Source: Collibacillus ludicampi (lineage in GTDB: Bacteria > Bacillota > Bacilli > Tumebacillales > BOQE01). Taken from it: a stretch of 64,000 nucleotides of DNA. The position numbers and the translations under genes are program-made. Positions within the stretch are counted from its first letter, which is position 1; every line of letters begins with the position of its first letter. Location: the NCBI RefSeq assembly GCF_023705585.1, contig NZ_BOQE01000001.1, positions 3,380,710 through 3,444,709 of the forward strand, given 5' to 3'. This document shows, one piece after another, positions 1,717 to 14,143 of the stretch. The notes below the pieces were generated by a model, which did no database searches, was not told the DNA's origin, and was given only the letters and a program-made list of their open reading frames with translations.

Positions 1717-2712
1717 ATGTCGGATATCTTGTCGCAGAGCGAAATCGATGCATTATTATCCGCGTTAAAATCGGGAGAAGTTAGCCCTGAGGAGATTCGC
1801 AGGGACGATGAAGAGAAAAGGGTCAAAACGTATGATTTTAAACGAGCGATGCGTTTTTCCAAAGATCAGATCCGTAGTCTCTCGCGAATCTTTGAGAATT
1901 TTTCCCGTTCGTTGACAACTTACTTCTCGGGGCAACTGCGGACATTCGTGCAGATTCAAGTGATCTCTGTCGAACAACTGCCTTATGAAGAGTTTATCCG
2001 CTCGATACCGAAAATGACGATTTTGAATGTCCTTCATGTTCATCCGCTCGATGGAAAGTTTATTATGGAATTTAACCCCAATATCGCATATGCCATGTTG
2101 GAACGGTTGTTGGGGGGAACGGGTACTGGAACGAGTGAAGCGAGGGCCTTGACGGAAATTGAAAGCACCATTTTGGAGAGGGTTTTTTCAGGGTGCCTCC
2201 CCAGTTTCCAAGAAGCGTGGAAAGGCATAGCGGAGATCGTACTGGAAATGGAACAGTTGGAGGTAAATCCCCAGTTCTTGCAGATCGTTACACCCAATGA
2301 AACCGTGGCCGTCGTTTCTTTATCGATGAAAATCGGTGATACGAGTGGGATGATCAATATCTGTATGCCGCATGTCGTTCTCGAACCGATCATGCCGAAA
2401 CTCTCTGCCCATTACTGGCTGGATACAAAACGTTCAGAAATCGACATGAATCAGGTACGCTCATTGCGGTCAAATGTTGCCCGTGCCCCCGTTCCCATCA
2501 TCGCCGAATTAGGAACATCCACCATTACCGTGGGAGAATTGCTCGGCCTTGCCGTCGGTGATGTAATTACATTGGATCAGAGCGTGGGAACAAAGATTCA
2601 AGTGAAAGTAGGAGGACGAGTGAAATTTTTAGGTCAGCCTGGTACATATAAAGGAAGAATCGCTGTGCAGATTGCCAAGATTGTAGAGGAAGGGGATAAC
2701 GTGAGTGAATGA
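1717..2712 (+). CDS. fliM: Flagellar motor switch protein FliM
   Basis: FliM has 331 residues, the usual size. It forms the middle of the C-ring, binds phosphorylated CheY and sets rotation direction. The N-terminal CheY-P-binding peptide is present (ILSQSEIDALLSAL, residues 4-17), then the CheC-like middle domain with GGTGTG near residue 129, and the SpoA (FliN-like) C-terminal domain. The start is the ATG at 1717, preceded by GAGGAGGTG. An upstream in-frame ATG at 1669 lies within fliL and lacks a ribosome site. The 3' end overlaps fliY by 8 bases. Confidence 0.96.
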   Translation: MSDILSQSEIDALLSALKSGEVSPEEIRRDDEEKRVKTYDFKRAMRFSKDQIRSLSRIFENFSRSLTTYFSGQLRTFVQIQVISVEQLPYEEFIRSIPKMTILNVLHVHPLDGKFIMEFNPNIAYAMLERLLGGTGTGTSEARALTEIESTILERVFSGCLPSFQEAWKGIAEIVLEMEQLEVNPQFLQIVTPNETVAVVSLSMKIGDTSGMINICMPHVVLEPIMPKLSAHYWLDTKRSEIDMNQVRSLRSNVARAPVPIIAELGTSTITVGELLGLAVGDVITLDQSVGTKIQVKVGGRVKFLGQPGTYKGRIAVQIAKIVEEGDNVSE

Positions 2713-3940
2713 GAACGACATCTTGTCACAACAGGAAATCGATGCTCTCCTCAAACAGACGCAAATGAAAGCCGACCTCTTGCACACCGAGGATTATTTA
2801 AATGAATTGGAGCAGGATGCTCTCGGCGAGATTGGAAATATATCATTCGGGACGGCTGCTACCGCTCTCTCTACTCTTTTGCGGCAGAAAGTGGAGATTA
2901 CCACGCCAACGGTCAGTGTCGTGAGCAAACAATCACTACACGCAGATTTTCCTTTGCCGCATGTTGCCATTAAGGTCGAGTATACGGACGGATTCGTCGG
3001 AGCGAATGTGTTGGTGATACGGACACGGGATGCGAAAATCATTGCCGATCTGATGATGGGAGGCGATGGTACTGTCGACGACGACGCGGAACTGAACGAA
3101 CTGCATTTAAGCGCTGTGGCGGAAGCGATGAACCAAATGATGGGCTCCGCTTCTACTTCGATGTCAACAGTTTTTGATATGTTTGTAAATATTACGCCGC
3201 CTCGCGTAGATATCGTAGACTTTGCAAATCCGCAAGCTTCCGACTTGTTTTCCGATGAGGATATTCTTGTGAAAGTATCGTTCCGCTTGATTGTCGGCAG
3301 TCTCATCGATTCGAGTATCATGCAGCTGATTCCGATCTCTTTCGCGCGTACCATGCTCGCGAAATTGAACATGGGAAGCATGGTGGAAACGAGTGACGCG
3401 GCTAGCCAGATTGCAAAGGTGGAAGAACAGGTGGCGGTCGCTTCCGAAGCGACGTTGTCAAACGCCGCTCAGGCTGTCCACGTCGAAACGGTGTCAAGTC
3501 CGTCAACTTCGTTTGTGGCTCAATCCGCGAACCAGAATGTAAAAGGAACTCCAGCGACACAAGCGTATTCAGGATCTATCCATGAGCCAAAAGTATCTTC
3601 GCAAAGCGTAAATGCTGTTCGCGTACAGCCAGTACAGTTTGCGGCATTCGATCATCAAGAACAGCCGGATACGGGAGCGGGCAATTTGGATTTATTGCTC
3701 GATATTCCATTGAGCGTAACGGTTGAATTGGGAAGGACAAAAAAACAGATCCGCGATATTTTGCAGCTGGCACCAGGTTCCATTCTTGAGCTCGAAAAAG
3801 TCGCCGGCGAACCGGTCGATATTCTTGTCAATCAAAAGTTGATCGCCAAAGGTGAAGTCGTCGTCATTGACGAGAATTTTGGCGTCCGCGTAACGGATAT
3901 CATCAGTCCCTTTGAGCGCGTGCAGAAACTGAACAACTGA
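2705..3940 (+). CDS. fliY: Flagellar motor switch phosphatase FliY
   Basis: FliY, 411 residues, combines three parts. Residues 6-17 are a FliM-like CheY-P-binding peptide (ILSQQEIDALLK). Residues ~30-225 form a CheC-like phosphatase domain with two D/S-x3-E-x2-N active motifs (D38-E42-N45, and SAVAEAMN further on). A low-complexity Ser/Ala/Gln/Val linker leads to a FliN/SpoA domain in the last ~85 residues. FliY both builds the C-ring and dephosphorylates CheY-P. It starts with GTG and overlaps fliM by 8 bases, implying coupled translation. Both phosphatase motifs are intact, which matters because the separate cheC gene in this operon is frameshifted. Confidence 0.96.
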   Translation: MNENDILSQQEIDALLKQTQMKADLLHTEDYLNELEQDALGEIGNISFGTAATALSTLLRQKVEITTPTVSVVSKQSLHADFPLPHVAIKVEYTDGFVGANVLVIRTRDAKIIADLMMGGDGTVDDDAELNELHLSAVAEAMNQMMGSASTSMSTVFDMFVNITPPRVDIVDFANPQASDLFSDEDILVKVSFRLIVGSLIDSSIMQLIPISFARTMLAKLNMGSMVETSDAASQIAKVEEQVAVASEATLSNAAQAVHVETVSSPSTSFVAQSANQNVKGTPATQAYSGSIHEPKVSSQSVNAVRVQPVQFAAFDHQEQPDTGAGNLDLLLDIPLSVTVELGRTKKQIRDILQLAPGSILELEKVAGEPVDILVNQKLIAKGEVVVIDENFGVRVTDIISPFERVQKLNN

Positions 3941-11979: not shown

Positions 11980-12573
11980 ATGGTTTCAACTTCGATGAGC
12001 GCAATCATCGCTGTCGGTGCGTCAACGGGAGGGCCACGTGCTTTGCAAACGTTGCTCTCCCACTTCTCCCCCGATGTTCCGGCGAGCATTGTTGTTGTCC
12101 AACATATGCCTCCCCGTTTTACCAAGTCACTCGCGAAACGTCTGGATGGACTGTGTTCGTTGCATGTAACGGAAGCGGAAGACGGACAACCGCTGCAAAA
12201 CGGATCGGTATATATCGCGCCCGGGGATTTTCACATGCGTGTCGTTTCTTCACCGAAAGGAGGTTTTCAGATTTCTTTACGGAAGGATCCTCCTTATGGC
12301 GGACATCGCCCTTCCGTCGATGTACTGTTCCATTCTCTTGTCGTTTTGCCCAGTCCCCCACGTTTGTTTGGCGTGCTTTTAACGGGCATGGGAAGGGATG
12401 GGGCGGAAGGATTAGCGGCGATCAAAGCGTCAGGAGGGACAACCATTGCGGAAGCGGAAGAATCTTGTATCGTTTTCGGCATGCCGAAAGCGGCGATCGA
12501 AAAGGGATGTGTCGATTGGGTACTCCCGGTTGATCAAATTGCAGAACGCTTAAAGGAGTTGATCGAATGGTAG
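11980..12573 (+). CDS. cheB: CheB methylesterase catalytic domain only (no receiver domain)
   Basis: The protein is about 197 residues and covers only the CheB methylesterase/deamidase domain. The catalytic triad is visible: S15 in GASTGGP, H42 in QHMPP and D140 in GMGRDG. Full CheB proteins are about 350 residues, with an N-terminal receiver domain and linker. Here the upstream sequence is flhG, and the open frame back to 11851 has no receiver motifs. Either this is a phosphorylation-independent CheB or the receiver part was lost. ATG 11980 (GAGGG upstream) was chosen; ATG 11995 is possible. The gene overlaps cheW by 7 bases. Confidence 0.9.
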   Translation: MVSTSMSAIIAVGASTGGPRALQTLLSHFSPDVPASIVVVQHMPPRFTKSLAKRLDGLCSLHVTEAEDGQPLQNGSVYIAPGDFHMRVVSSPKGGFQISLRKDPPYGGHRPSVDVLFHSLVVLPSPPRLFGVLLTGMGRDGAEGLAAIKASGGTTIAEAEESCIVFGMPKAAIEKGCVDWVLPVDQIAERLKELIEW

Positions 12574-13049
12574 AGAGAAAGGATGCGGAAAAAGAAACGA
12601 AAGTGATTGTTTTTCGCCTGAACGAAGAAGAGTATGGGGCGGAAGTCCGTGTGATCCGCTCGATTGAAAGGATGCAGCCGGTCACTCGCATGCCACAAAT
12701 GCCAGCGTTTGTCAAAGGGGTAATCAACCTGCGTGGCGTAATCACGCCTGTGATCGATCTGAAAACCCGTTTATCTTTAGGGGATACTGTCCAAGATCAG
12801 CAAACCCGCATCATCATCGTTTCTGTCCATGATATGCAAGTGGGGCTCATTGTCGACGCAGCGACAGATGTGATTGACATACCTGTTCATGCGATTGAGC
12901 CTCCGCCAATGCTTTTGGAAGGGATTCATTCTTCTTTTATCCGCGGCGTGGCTAAACTGCCGGAGCGTCTCCTGATCCTTTTGAATCTGGATCAAGTGCT
13001 CAGTCAGGAAGAATTTCAACAGTTACAACAAATGGAGAGGTCTTTATGA
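12567..13049 (+). CDS. cheW: Chemotaxis coupling protein CheW
   Basis: CheW, 160 residues, links chemoreceptors to the CheA kinase. The family pattern is clear: VFRLNEEEYGAEVRVIRSIER, then FVKGVINLRGVITPVIDLKTRL and the later VGLIVDAATDVIDI. In B. subtilis cheA lies between cheB and cheW. Here cheW starts inside the end of cheB, so cheA is absent from this position. The stop overlaps the cheC start (ATGA). Confidence 0.96.
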   Translation: MVERKDAEKETKVIVFRLNEEEYGAEVRVIRSIERMQPVTRMPQMPAFVKGVINLRGVITPVIDLKTRLSLGDTVQDQQTRIIIVSVHDMQVGLIVDAATDVIDIPVHAIEPPPMLLEGIHSSFIRGVAKLPERLLILLNLDQVLSQEEFQQLQQMERSL

Positions 13050-13664
13050 CGGAATTACTGAATTTAAACGAATTTCATTTGGATGTCCTGAGGGAAATCG
13101 GCAATATCGGAGCAGGTCATGCCGCCACGGCTCTTTCGACGTTGCTTCAACAGGAAATTCAAATGAAGGTTCCCTGTGTACGTATCGCTTCCTTCGATGA
13201 AATCGCTGATATCCTCGGAGGGGCCGAACAGATCGTCATCGGTGTTTTTCTTCGTACGGTCGGTGAGATTCCCGGGAATATTTTTTTTTCTACTGACATT
13301 GGATAGTGCAAAGCGTTTGCTCGTTTCGATTTTGGGCGATAACGAACACTCCGATTCATTCTCGGACATGGAGATTTCCGCAATTTCCGAAGTAGGGAAC
13401 ATACTCGCAAGTTCATATGTTTCCTCCATGTCAGATTTCATAAAAAAAGAGATTCAAGTAACTGTCCCTGCCGTTTCCATCGACATGGCGGGGGCGATTC
13501 TCAGCGTGGGACTGATACCGATGGGAGAGATCGGCGATCTGGCACTCGTAGTAGAGACGGAACTCCTCTATGAAAACCGTGAAATCGAGGGGTATCTTTT
13601 CATGTTGCCTGATCCTGGGACGATAGAAACGATATTTCAAGCATTAGGAGTGGAGTATTCATGA
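13046..13664 (+). pseudogene. cheC: CheC phosphatase gene, interrupted by a frameshift in a T9 run
   Basis: Two adjacent frames together encode a CheC-like CheY-P phosphatase of normal size (~205 residues). The first frame, from ATG 13046, has the first active motif (D-x3-E-x2-N in LDVLREIGNIGAGHAA) and ends with TAG at 13304-13306. The second frame continues the homology (LLTLDSAKRLLVSILGD) and carries the second motif (SAISEVGN) to the stop at 13662-13664. The break is at nine T (13281-13289); eight T would give one continuous protein. This could be a true null mutation, reversible slipped-strand variation, RNA polymerase slippage restoring some full product, or a sequencing error. The 3' end still overlaps cheD by 4 bases, as in an intact gene. 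Confidence 0.88.
13281..13289 (+). repeat. Nine-T homopolymer at the cheC frameshift
   Basis: The run of nine T lies exactly where the two cheC frames join. Loss of one T restores a single open frame through the second catalytic motif. Such runs are prone to replication and transcription slippage. Confidence 0.9.
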
Positions 13665-14143
13665 ACGTAGTGAAGGTAGGCATTGCCGATCTGAATGTGG
13701 TAGACACTCCTGATGTGATTCGCACGACCGGTCTTGGATCATGTGTCGGCGTCGTCCTGTATGATCCAACTTGCAAAATGGCCGGGATGGCACACGTGAT
13801 GTTGCCCGAGTCGCCCTCAACGGAAAATAACGTGAACCGGGGAAAATACGCGAATACTGCGGTCCCTTATCTGGTTGAATGGATGGAAAAAAGAGGAGCA
13901 CGAAAAAGAAACATGTGGGCGAAATTGGCGGGAGGGGCACAAATGTTCACGTTCGCAGGACAAAGTGATTTGATGCGCATTGGCCCACGCAATGTAGAAG
14001 CGGTGAAAATGGCGCTTTCCCGATTGGGGATTCCTGTTATGGGGGAAGACACGGGGGGGAATTATGGCAGGACGATCGAATTTTCCACGGTCGATGGAAT
14101 TTTGACCGTCCGAACAGCAAGGAGAGGGATCATTTCGGTGTGA
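13661..14143 (+). CDS. cheD: Chemoreceptor glutamine deamidase CheD
   Basis: CheD, 160 residues, deamidates chemoreceptor glutamines and, in B. subtilis, binds CheC and stimulates its phosphatase activity. The catalytic Cys28 (GLGSCVGV) and His45 (AHVMLPES) are in place, as are GGAQM and the C-terminal GRTIEF strand. It starts in the cheC stop (ATGA). Because cheC is frameshifted, CheD may lack its usual partner or depend on slippage-derived CheC. Confidence 0.95.
   Translation: MNVVKVGIADLNVVDTPDVIRTTGLGSCVGVVLYDPTCKMAGMAHVMLPESPSTENNVNRGKYANTAVPYLVEWMEKRGARKRNMWAKLAGGAQMFTFAGQSDLMRIGPRNVEAVKMALSRLGIPVMGEDTGGNYGRTIEFSTVDGILTVRTARRGIISV

Follow-up and report, generated by a model that had tools for sequence, protein, structure and literature searches.

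The CheC of Thermotoga maritima, whose structure has been solved (1xkr; 2f9z), carries two active-site motifs and is encoded in a cheC-cheD gene pair. A null mutation of cheC leaves Bacillus subtilis poorly chemotactic, and residue D149 of its CheC is involved in CheD binding; the phosphatase activity of CheC is minor, FliY being the main CheY-P phosphatase (PMC3513319). CheC is not a motility master switch. Single-base, frame-disrupting changes in a mononucleotide run of a motility-affecting gene have been described for swrA of B. subtilis, which reverts with high frequency and flips at about 1e-4 (PMC3874003). In Shigella mxiE (a run of U) and Citrobacter tssM1 (A11), two overlapping frames are joined by a homopolymer change at the RNA level, and slippage was shown to occur and to be needed for the longer product (PMC1088944; PMC4256274). 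Deletion slippage of Escherichia coli RNA polymerase on T8 restores ∼10% of reporter expression, a value that rises with the length of the T run (PMC6260861). In many bacteria, long A/T runs are depleted from coding sequence, and slippage has been named as the cause (PMC1088944).

We analyzed the cheC locus of Collibacillus ludicampi in its genomic context (the window, a 64-kb stretch of DNA). As assembled, the gene is split at a run of nine T residues, the only mononucleotide run of at least nine bases in the window. The cheC frame opens with an ATG at position 13046, which forms part of an ATGA sequence shared with the stop codon of cheW, and proceeds through the run into a TAG codon at 13304–13306 after 86 residues; from the run onward, the coding sequence continues in the next frame as far as a stop codon at 13662–13664, which overlaps the cheD ATG at 13661 (Table 1). 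A coding signal was detected on either side of the run, and homology to relatives switches frame exactly at this site. Besides the one extra T, no second stop codon, second indel or further shift was seen in cheC, and the ATGA overlaps with both cheW and cheD are intact.

Table 1. Features of the cheC locus and of neighboring chemotaxis genes (positions within the window).
Feature	Position	Strand	Description
fliY	2705–3940	+	Intact; motor-switch phosphatase with CheC-like sites
cheB	11980–12573	+	Methylesterase domain only (PF01339); receiver missing
cheW	12567–13049	+	4-base overlap with cheC start
cheC, upstream half	13046–13306	+	86 aa; first phosphatase motif; TAG closely 3' of the T run; Pfam CheC E 2.5e-13
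First CheC phosphatase motif	13082–13174	+	Residues 13–43 of the joined protein
T9 run	13281–13289	+	Frame-change site; 2–7 T at the homologous I-F-F codons of relatives
cheC, downstream half	13290–13664	+	+1 frame; second phosphatase motif and predicted CheD-binding Asp (D146); Pfam CheC E 7.4e-13
Second CheC phosphatase motif	13377–13469	+	Residues 111–141 of the joined protein
cheD	13661–14143	+	Overlaps cheC stop; own Shine-Dalgarno-like AGGAG upstream; 60–67% identity to order relatives

Shortening of the run to T8 joins the two halves into a CheC of 205 residues, and its extension by two T (T11) yields 206 residues. The joined protein is matched twice by Pfam CheC (PF04509), contains two exact motifs of the type D/S-x3-E-x2-N-x22-P and can be aligned from end to end with the CheC structure of T. 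maritima (E 2e-30). Like its T. maritima counterpart, the gene is adjacent to cheD, here within the fla/che operon; it differs in being split by the T9 run and in five changed near-invariant residues of the second half. Residue D146 presumably corresponds to D149 of B. subtilis CheC, judging by its place in a D-M-A-G segment and not by an alignment with the B. subtilis sequence. The TAG codon at 13304 breaks the single uninterrupted frame of ∼205 residues that characterizes the family; as assembled, this is a broken cheC and not a working member of the CheC family. These results bear out a sequence-only reading of the locus, which had described cheC as split by one extra T in an otherwise well-kept gene, with two CheC-like halves that are joined upon removal of one T, with both phosphatase motifs and with overlaps with cheW and cheD.

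Comparison with relatives, as that reading had proposed, revealed cheC in 13 of 14 genomes of the order and a split solely in C. ludicampi, the only genome of its family in the comparison. None of 110 other CheC loci from this order and other Bacilli, which were taken as best matches (a choice that favours intact genes), was interrupted; at the same Ile-Phe-Phe codons these loci carry between two and seven T. As far as is visible among the compared genomes, the split thus appears to be private to this genome, whose placement in Bacilli agrees with the named CheC relatives. A search for plasmid DNA matches to the locus yielded none. Two of the relatives showed peculiarities of their own. The cheC match of Aneurinibacillus danicus (3001–3774) is ∼165 bases longer than those of the other relatives; its best aligned segment is without a stop codon, and the extra length possibly reflects an insertion or two joined segments. 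In a further genome (G002, C58:18268–18951), the CheC match falls into two segments within one open frame of 245 residues, which suggests an insertion of ∼28 codons near residue 153.

The chemotaxis pathway of C. ludicampi is alive but remodelled. The genome retains one CheA, about 17 MCP-family places, CheR, CheB, three CheW and FliY; the presence of the receptors, CheA, CheR, CheB and CheW rules out a loss of the whole pathway behind the decay of cheC. The sole CheA is encoded at C1:1300794–1303082, outside the fla/che operon and next to CheW- and CheY-like genes of its own, and its core is 47–58% identical to that of the operon CheA of relatives. The operon was read in four relatives of the order, and in each of them cheA is located between cheB and cheW; an alignment-based scan of genome contigs, which yielded 80 named Bacilli cheC loci, placed it just upstream of cheW in 78 of them. 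The genome's sole CheB is devoid of a receiver domain, and the CheB proteins of the same four relatives comprise 358–382 residues with a receiver-like N-terminus. The cheB gene is separated from flhG by ∼20 bases and has a clean overlap with cheW, and the loss of the receiver looks old because of this clean spacing and overlap. Judged by open-frame length alone, no CheW-plus-receiver protein of the size of CheV was evident in C. ludicampi or in most of the order. Phosphorylation feedback appears to be reduced independently of cheC, which would make a real loss of cheC more tolerable.

The explanation that in our view fits these observations best is that cheC, otherwise intact in the sequenced lineage, gained one T by a real but incidental mutation, whose effect is probably leaky; we hold this assignment with about as much confidence as reserve. 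It has to be weighed against an error in the assembly, in which case the true run would be T8 and cheC uninterrupted. Long homopolymers are a classic place for base-calling errors. The remainder of cheC is intact and the split is unique among relatives, as would be expected of an error, and the 3.99-Mb main contig would fit a long-read assembly. Moreover, many purported pseudogenes of public genomes are assembly errors (PMC11017572). The genome assembly as a whole (7 contigs, 4.09 Mb) has a completeness of 99.87%, which speaks against an error, and so does the behaviour of other homopolymers. We surveyed all 38 A/T runs of at least nine bases in the genome, together with a sample of 464 kb (20 stretches of 20 kb and the window). 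About ten of the 38 runs lie in frame inside long open frames that are protein-like by eye. In the 464 kb, 54–61 coding runs of seven bases and 11 of eight keep the frame, and no other convincing gene split was found at these ∼70 coding runs. Other shifts flagged in the sample looked by eye like ordinary gene borders, e.g. ftsE/ftsX and accD/accA. Given the long runs that sit in open genes and the lack of another coding-run split in the sample, a systematic homopolymer error behind the split is unlikely. The split is also more than chance, being the only clear gene split among the 38 runs. A sequencing error is less likely than an ordinary slippage mutation as the source of the extra T, and it would leave the unusual changes of the downstream half unexplained; we regard an error as possible but rather unlikely.

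These changes concern near-invariant columns, at which the downstream half departs in 5 of 32 cases (G122S, L125V, T132I, P138V and F184L), more than in any of the 110 relatives, and the upstream half in 0 of 26 (Fisher p 0.058, post hoc). By two further statistics, likewise looked at after the fact, the C. ludicampi branch share differs between the C- and N-terminal halves (bootstrap P 0.03) and the distance ratio ranks third of 111. The asymmetry gives a weak hint that the downstream half may be under relaxed constraint, which would fit a real and not brand-new frameshift; ordinary lineage divergence could also be the source of the departures. Taken further, the asymmetry would point to an older loss, in which cheC is an early pseudogene of a lineage that is dismantling its phospho-feedback and the downstream half is starting to drift. 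The missing CheB receiver and the relocated cheA are consistent with such a history. It is at odds with the absence of a further stop codon or indel and with the retention of the catalytic E/N/P residues and D146, and a wholly dead gene does not explain the fully conserved upstream half; we therefore consider an older loss improbable. The sequence-only reading had offered a change that is recent, reversible or tolerated by slippage. The lack of any other stop codon or indel fits a young or tolerated change. Tolerance by slippage is plausible in view of the behaviour of E. coli RNA polymerase on T8 (PMC6260861) and of the scarcity of coding A/T runs of at least nine bases in this genome. Reversibility gained no positive support.

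The T run may alternatively be functional. Its T8 precursor needs no special explanation, because the codon usage of this genome gives a probability of 0.13 for T8 at the Ile-Phe-Phe site. Codon shuffling of open frames of at least 200 codons revealed a depletion of coding A/T runs of at least nine bases (1 seen versus 14 expected) and a smaller number than expected of runs of eight (20 versus 33). Long coding A/T runs thus look like a liability in this genome, and their depletion argues against the genome using such runs as switches; at the same time, the avoidance of coding runs of at least nine suggests that nine-base runs do slip in this organism. This last point would suit a maintained transcriptional slippage, with T9 as the normal, established state of the lineage. 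Cells would then make mostly an N-terminal, single-site CheC fragment and a slippage-derived minority of full-length protein, the ratio would set the strength of adaptation in a pathway whose CheB receiver is already gone, and the drift of the downstream half would be its trace. As required for such a mechanism, the run consists of at least nine A/T bases at which an RNA-level indel joins both cheC frames. Slippage on T runs as long as this one occurs in E. coli (PMC6260861), and nine-base A/T runs are so used in some bacteria (PMC1088944; PMC4256274). In contrast to mxiE and tssM1, slippage at cheC is predicted, via one U lost or two gained. Neither the run nor the split is kept in any relative, and RNA structure downstream of the run is absent (z 0.46), although it is not required. 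Transcriptional slippage works without such structure. Maintained slippage is in our estimation very unlikely.

The least probable of the explanations weighed here is a phase-variable contingency locus, in which reversible T8/T9 slippage would toggle CheC within the population by analogy with swrA. At this length, a mononucleotide run is prone to mutation, and the T9 run is a coding repeat tract whose change in length alters the frame. However, the tract is not maintained among the 110 relatives, coding runs of at least nine are depleted and not enriched in the genome, and codon usage accounts for the length of the run. The cheC run is known from one assembly, in contrast to the high-frequency reversion reported for swrA (PMC3874003), and the product of cheC acts in adaptation and does not activate the flagellar operon. 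The proposal in the sequence-only reading of a reversible, swrA-like control of motility thus finds no positive support in the comparison with relatives, the ∼13% expectation for a T8 precursor and the scarcity of long coding runs.

Other routes to the downstream half were also considered. Ribosomal frameshifting at T9 is unlikely: a shift of +1 or −2 would be needed, the run carries no stop codon, and folding showed no structure behind it (fold z 0.46). A search for an internal promoter of the downstream half gave no sigma-70-like site. Translational restart at an in-frame TTG (13299) or ATG (13368), both without a clear ribosome-binding site, is a route that we do not favour, since it is within the I-F-F segment of the first half that the gene is broken.

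On the preferred reading of an incidental mutation, slippage would have added one T, most simply by a T8-to-T9 change, within ordinary Ile-Phe-Phe codons. Translation of a faithful transcript would stop at the TAG codon after 86 residues, so that the second motif and the predicted CheD-binding face would not be made; cheD should still be translatable from its own ribosome-binding site. RNA polymerase that drops one U would restore the frame in a minority of transcripts. Because slippage of RNA polymerase may rescue such a minority, cheC output is probably strongly lowered rather than fully off. By analogy, full-length CheC may reasonably be expected as a minor product, with slippage rates taken from E. 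coli and not from this organism. The loss may be tolerated through the intact FliY, possibly the reason in its own right, together with a feedback already remodelled by a CheB without receiver and a cheA outside the operon.

An annotation pipeline would label the split cheC a pseudogene, and if slippage restores the frame, this would be another wrong pseudogene label. If the extra T is real, C. ludicampi would offer a natural CheC-reduced state beside intact CheD and FliY and a CheB without receiver, in which the weight of the CheC/CheD arm could be tested once other feedback is gone.

Elsewhere in the genome, the segment C1:1500001–1502500 reads as N and is apparently masked. A YrvL-like membrane gene at C1:2558682 has an ATG codon followed by A11, another of the 38 long A/T runs; this ATG is out of frame with the gene body, and a TTG start codon is located just behind the run, which makes the gene a possible second homopolymer-affected gene.
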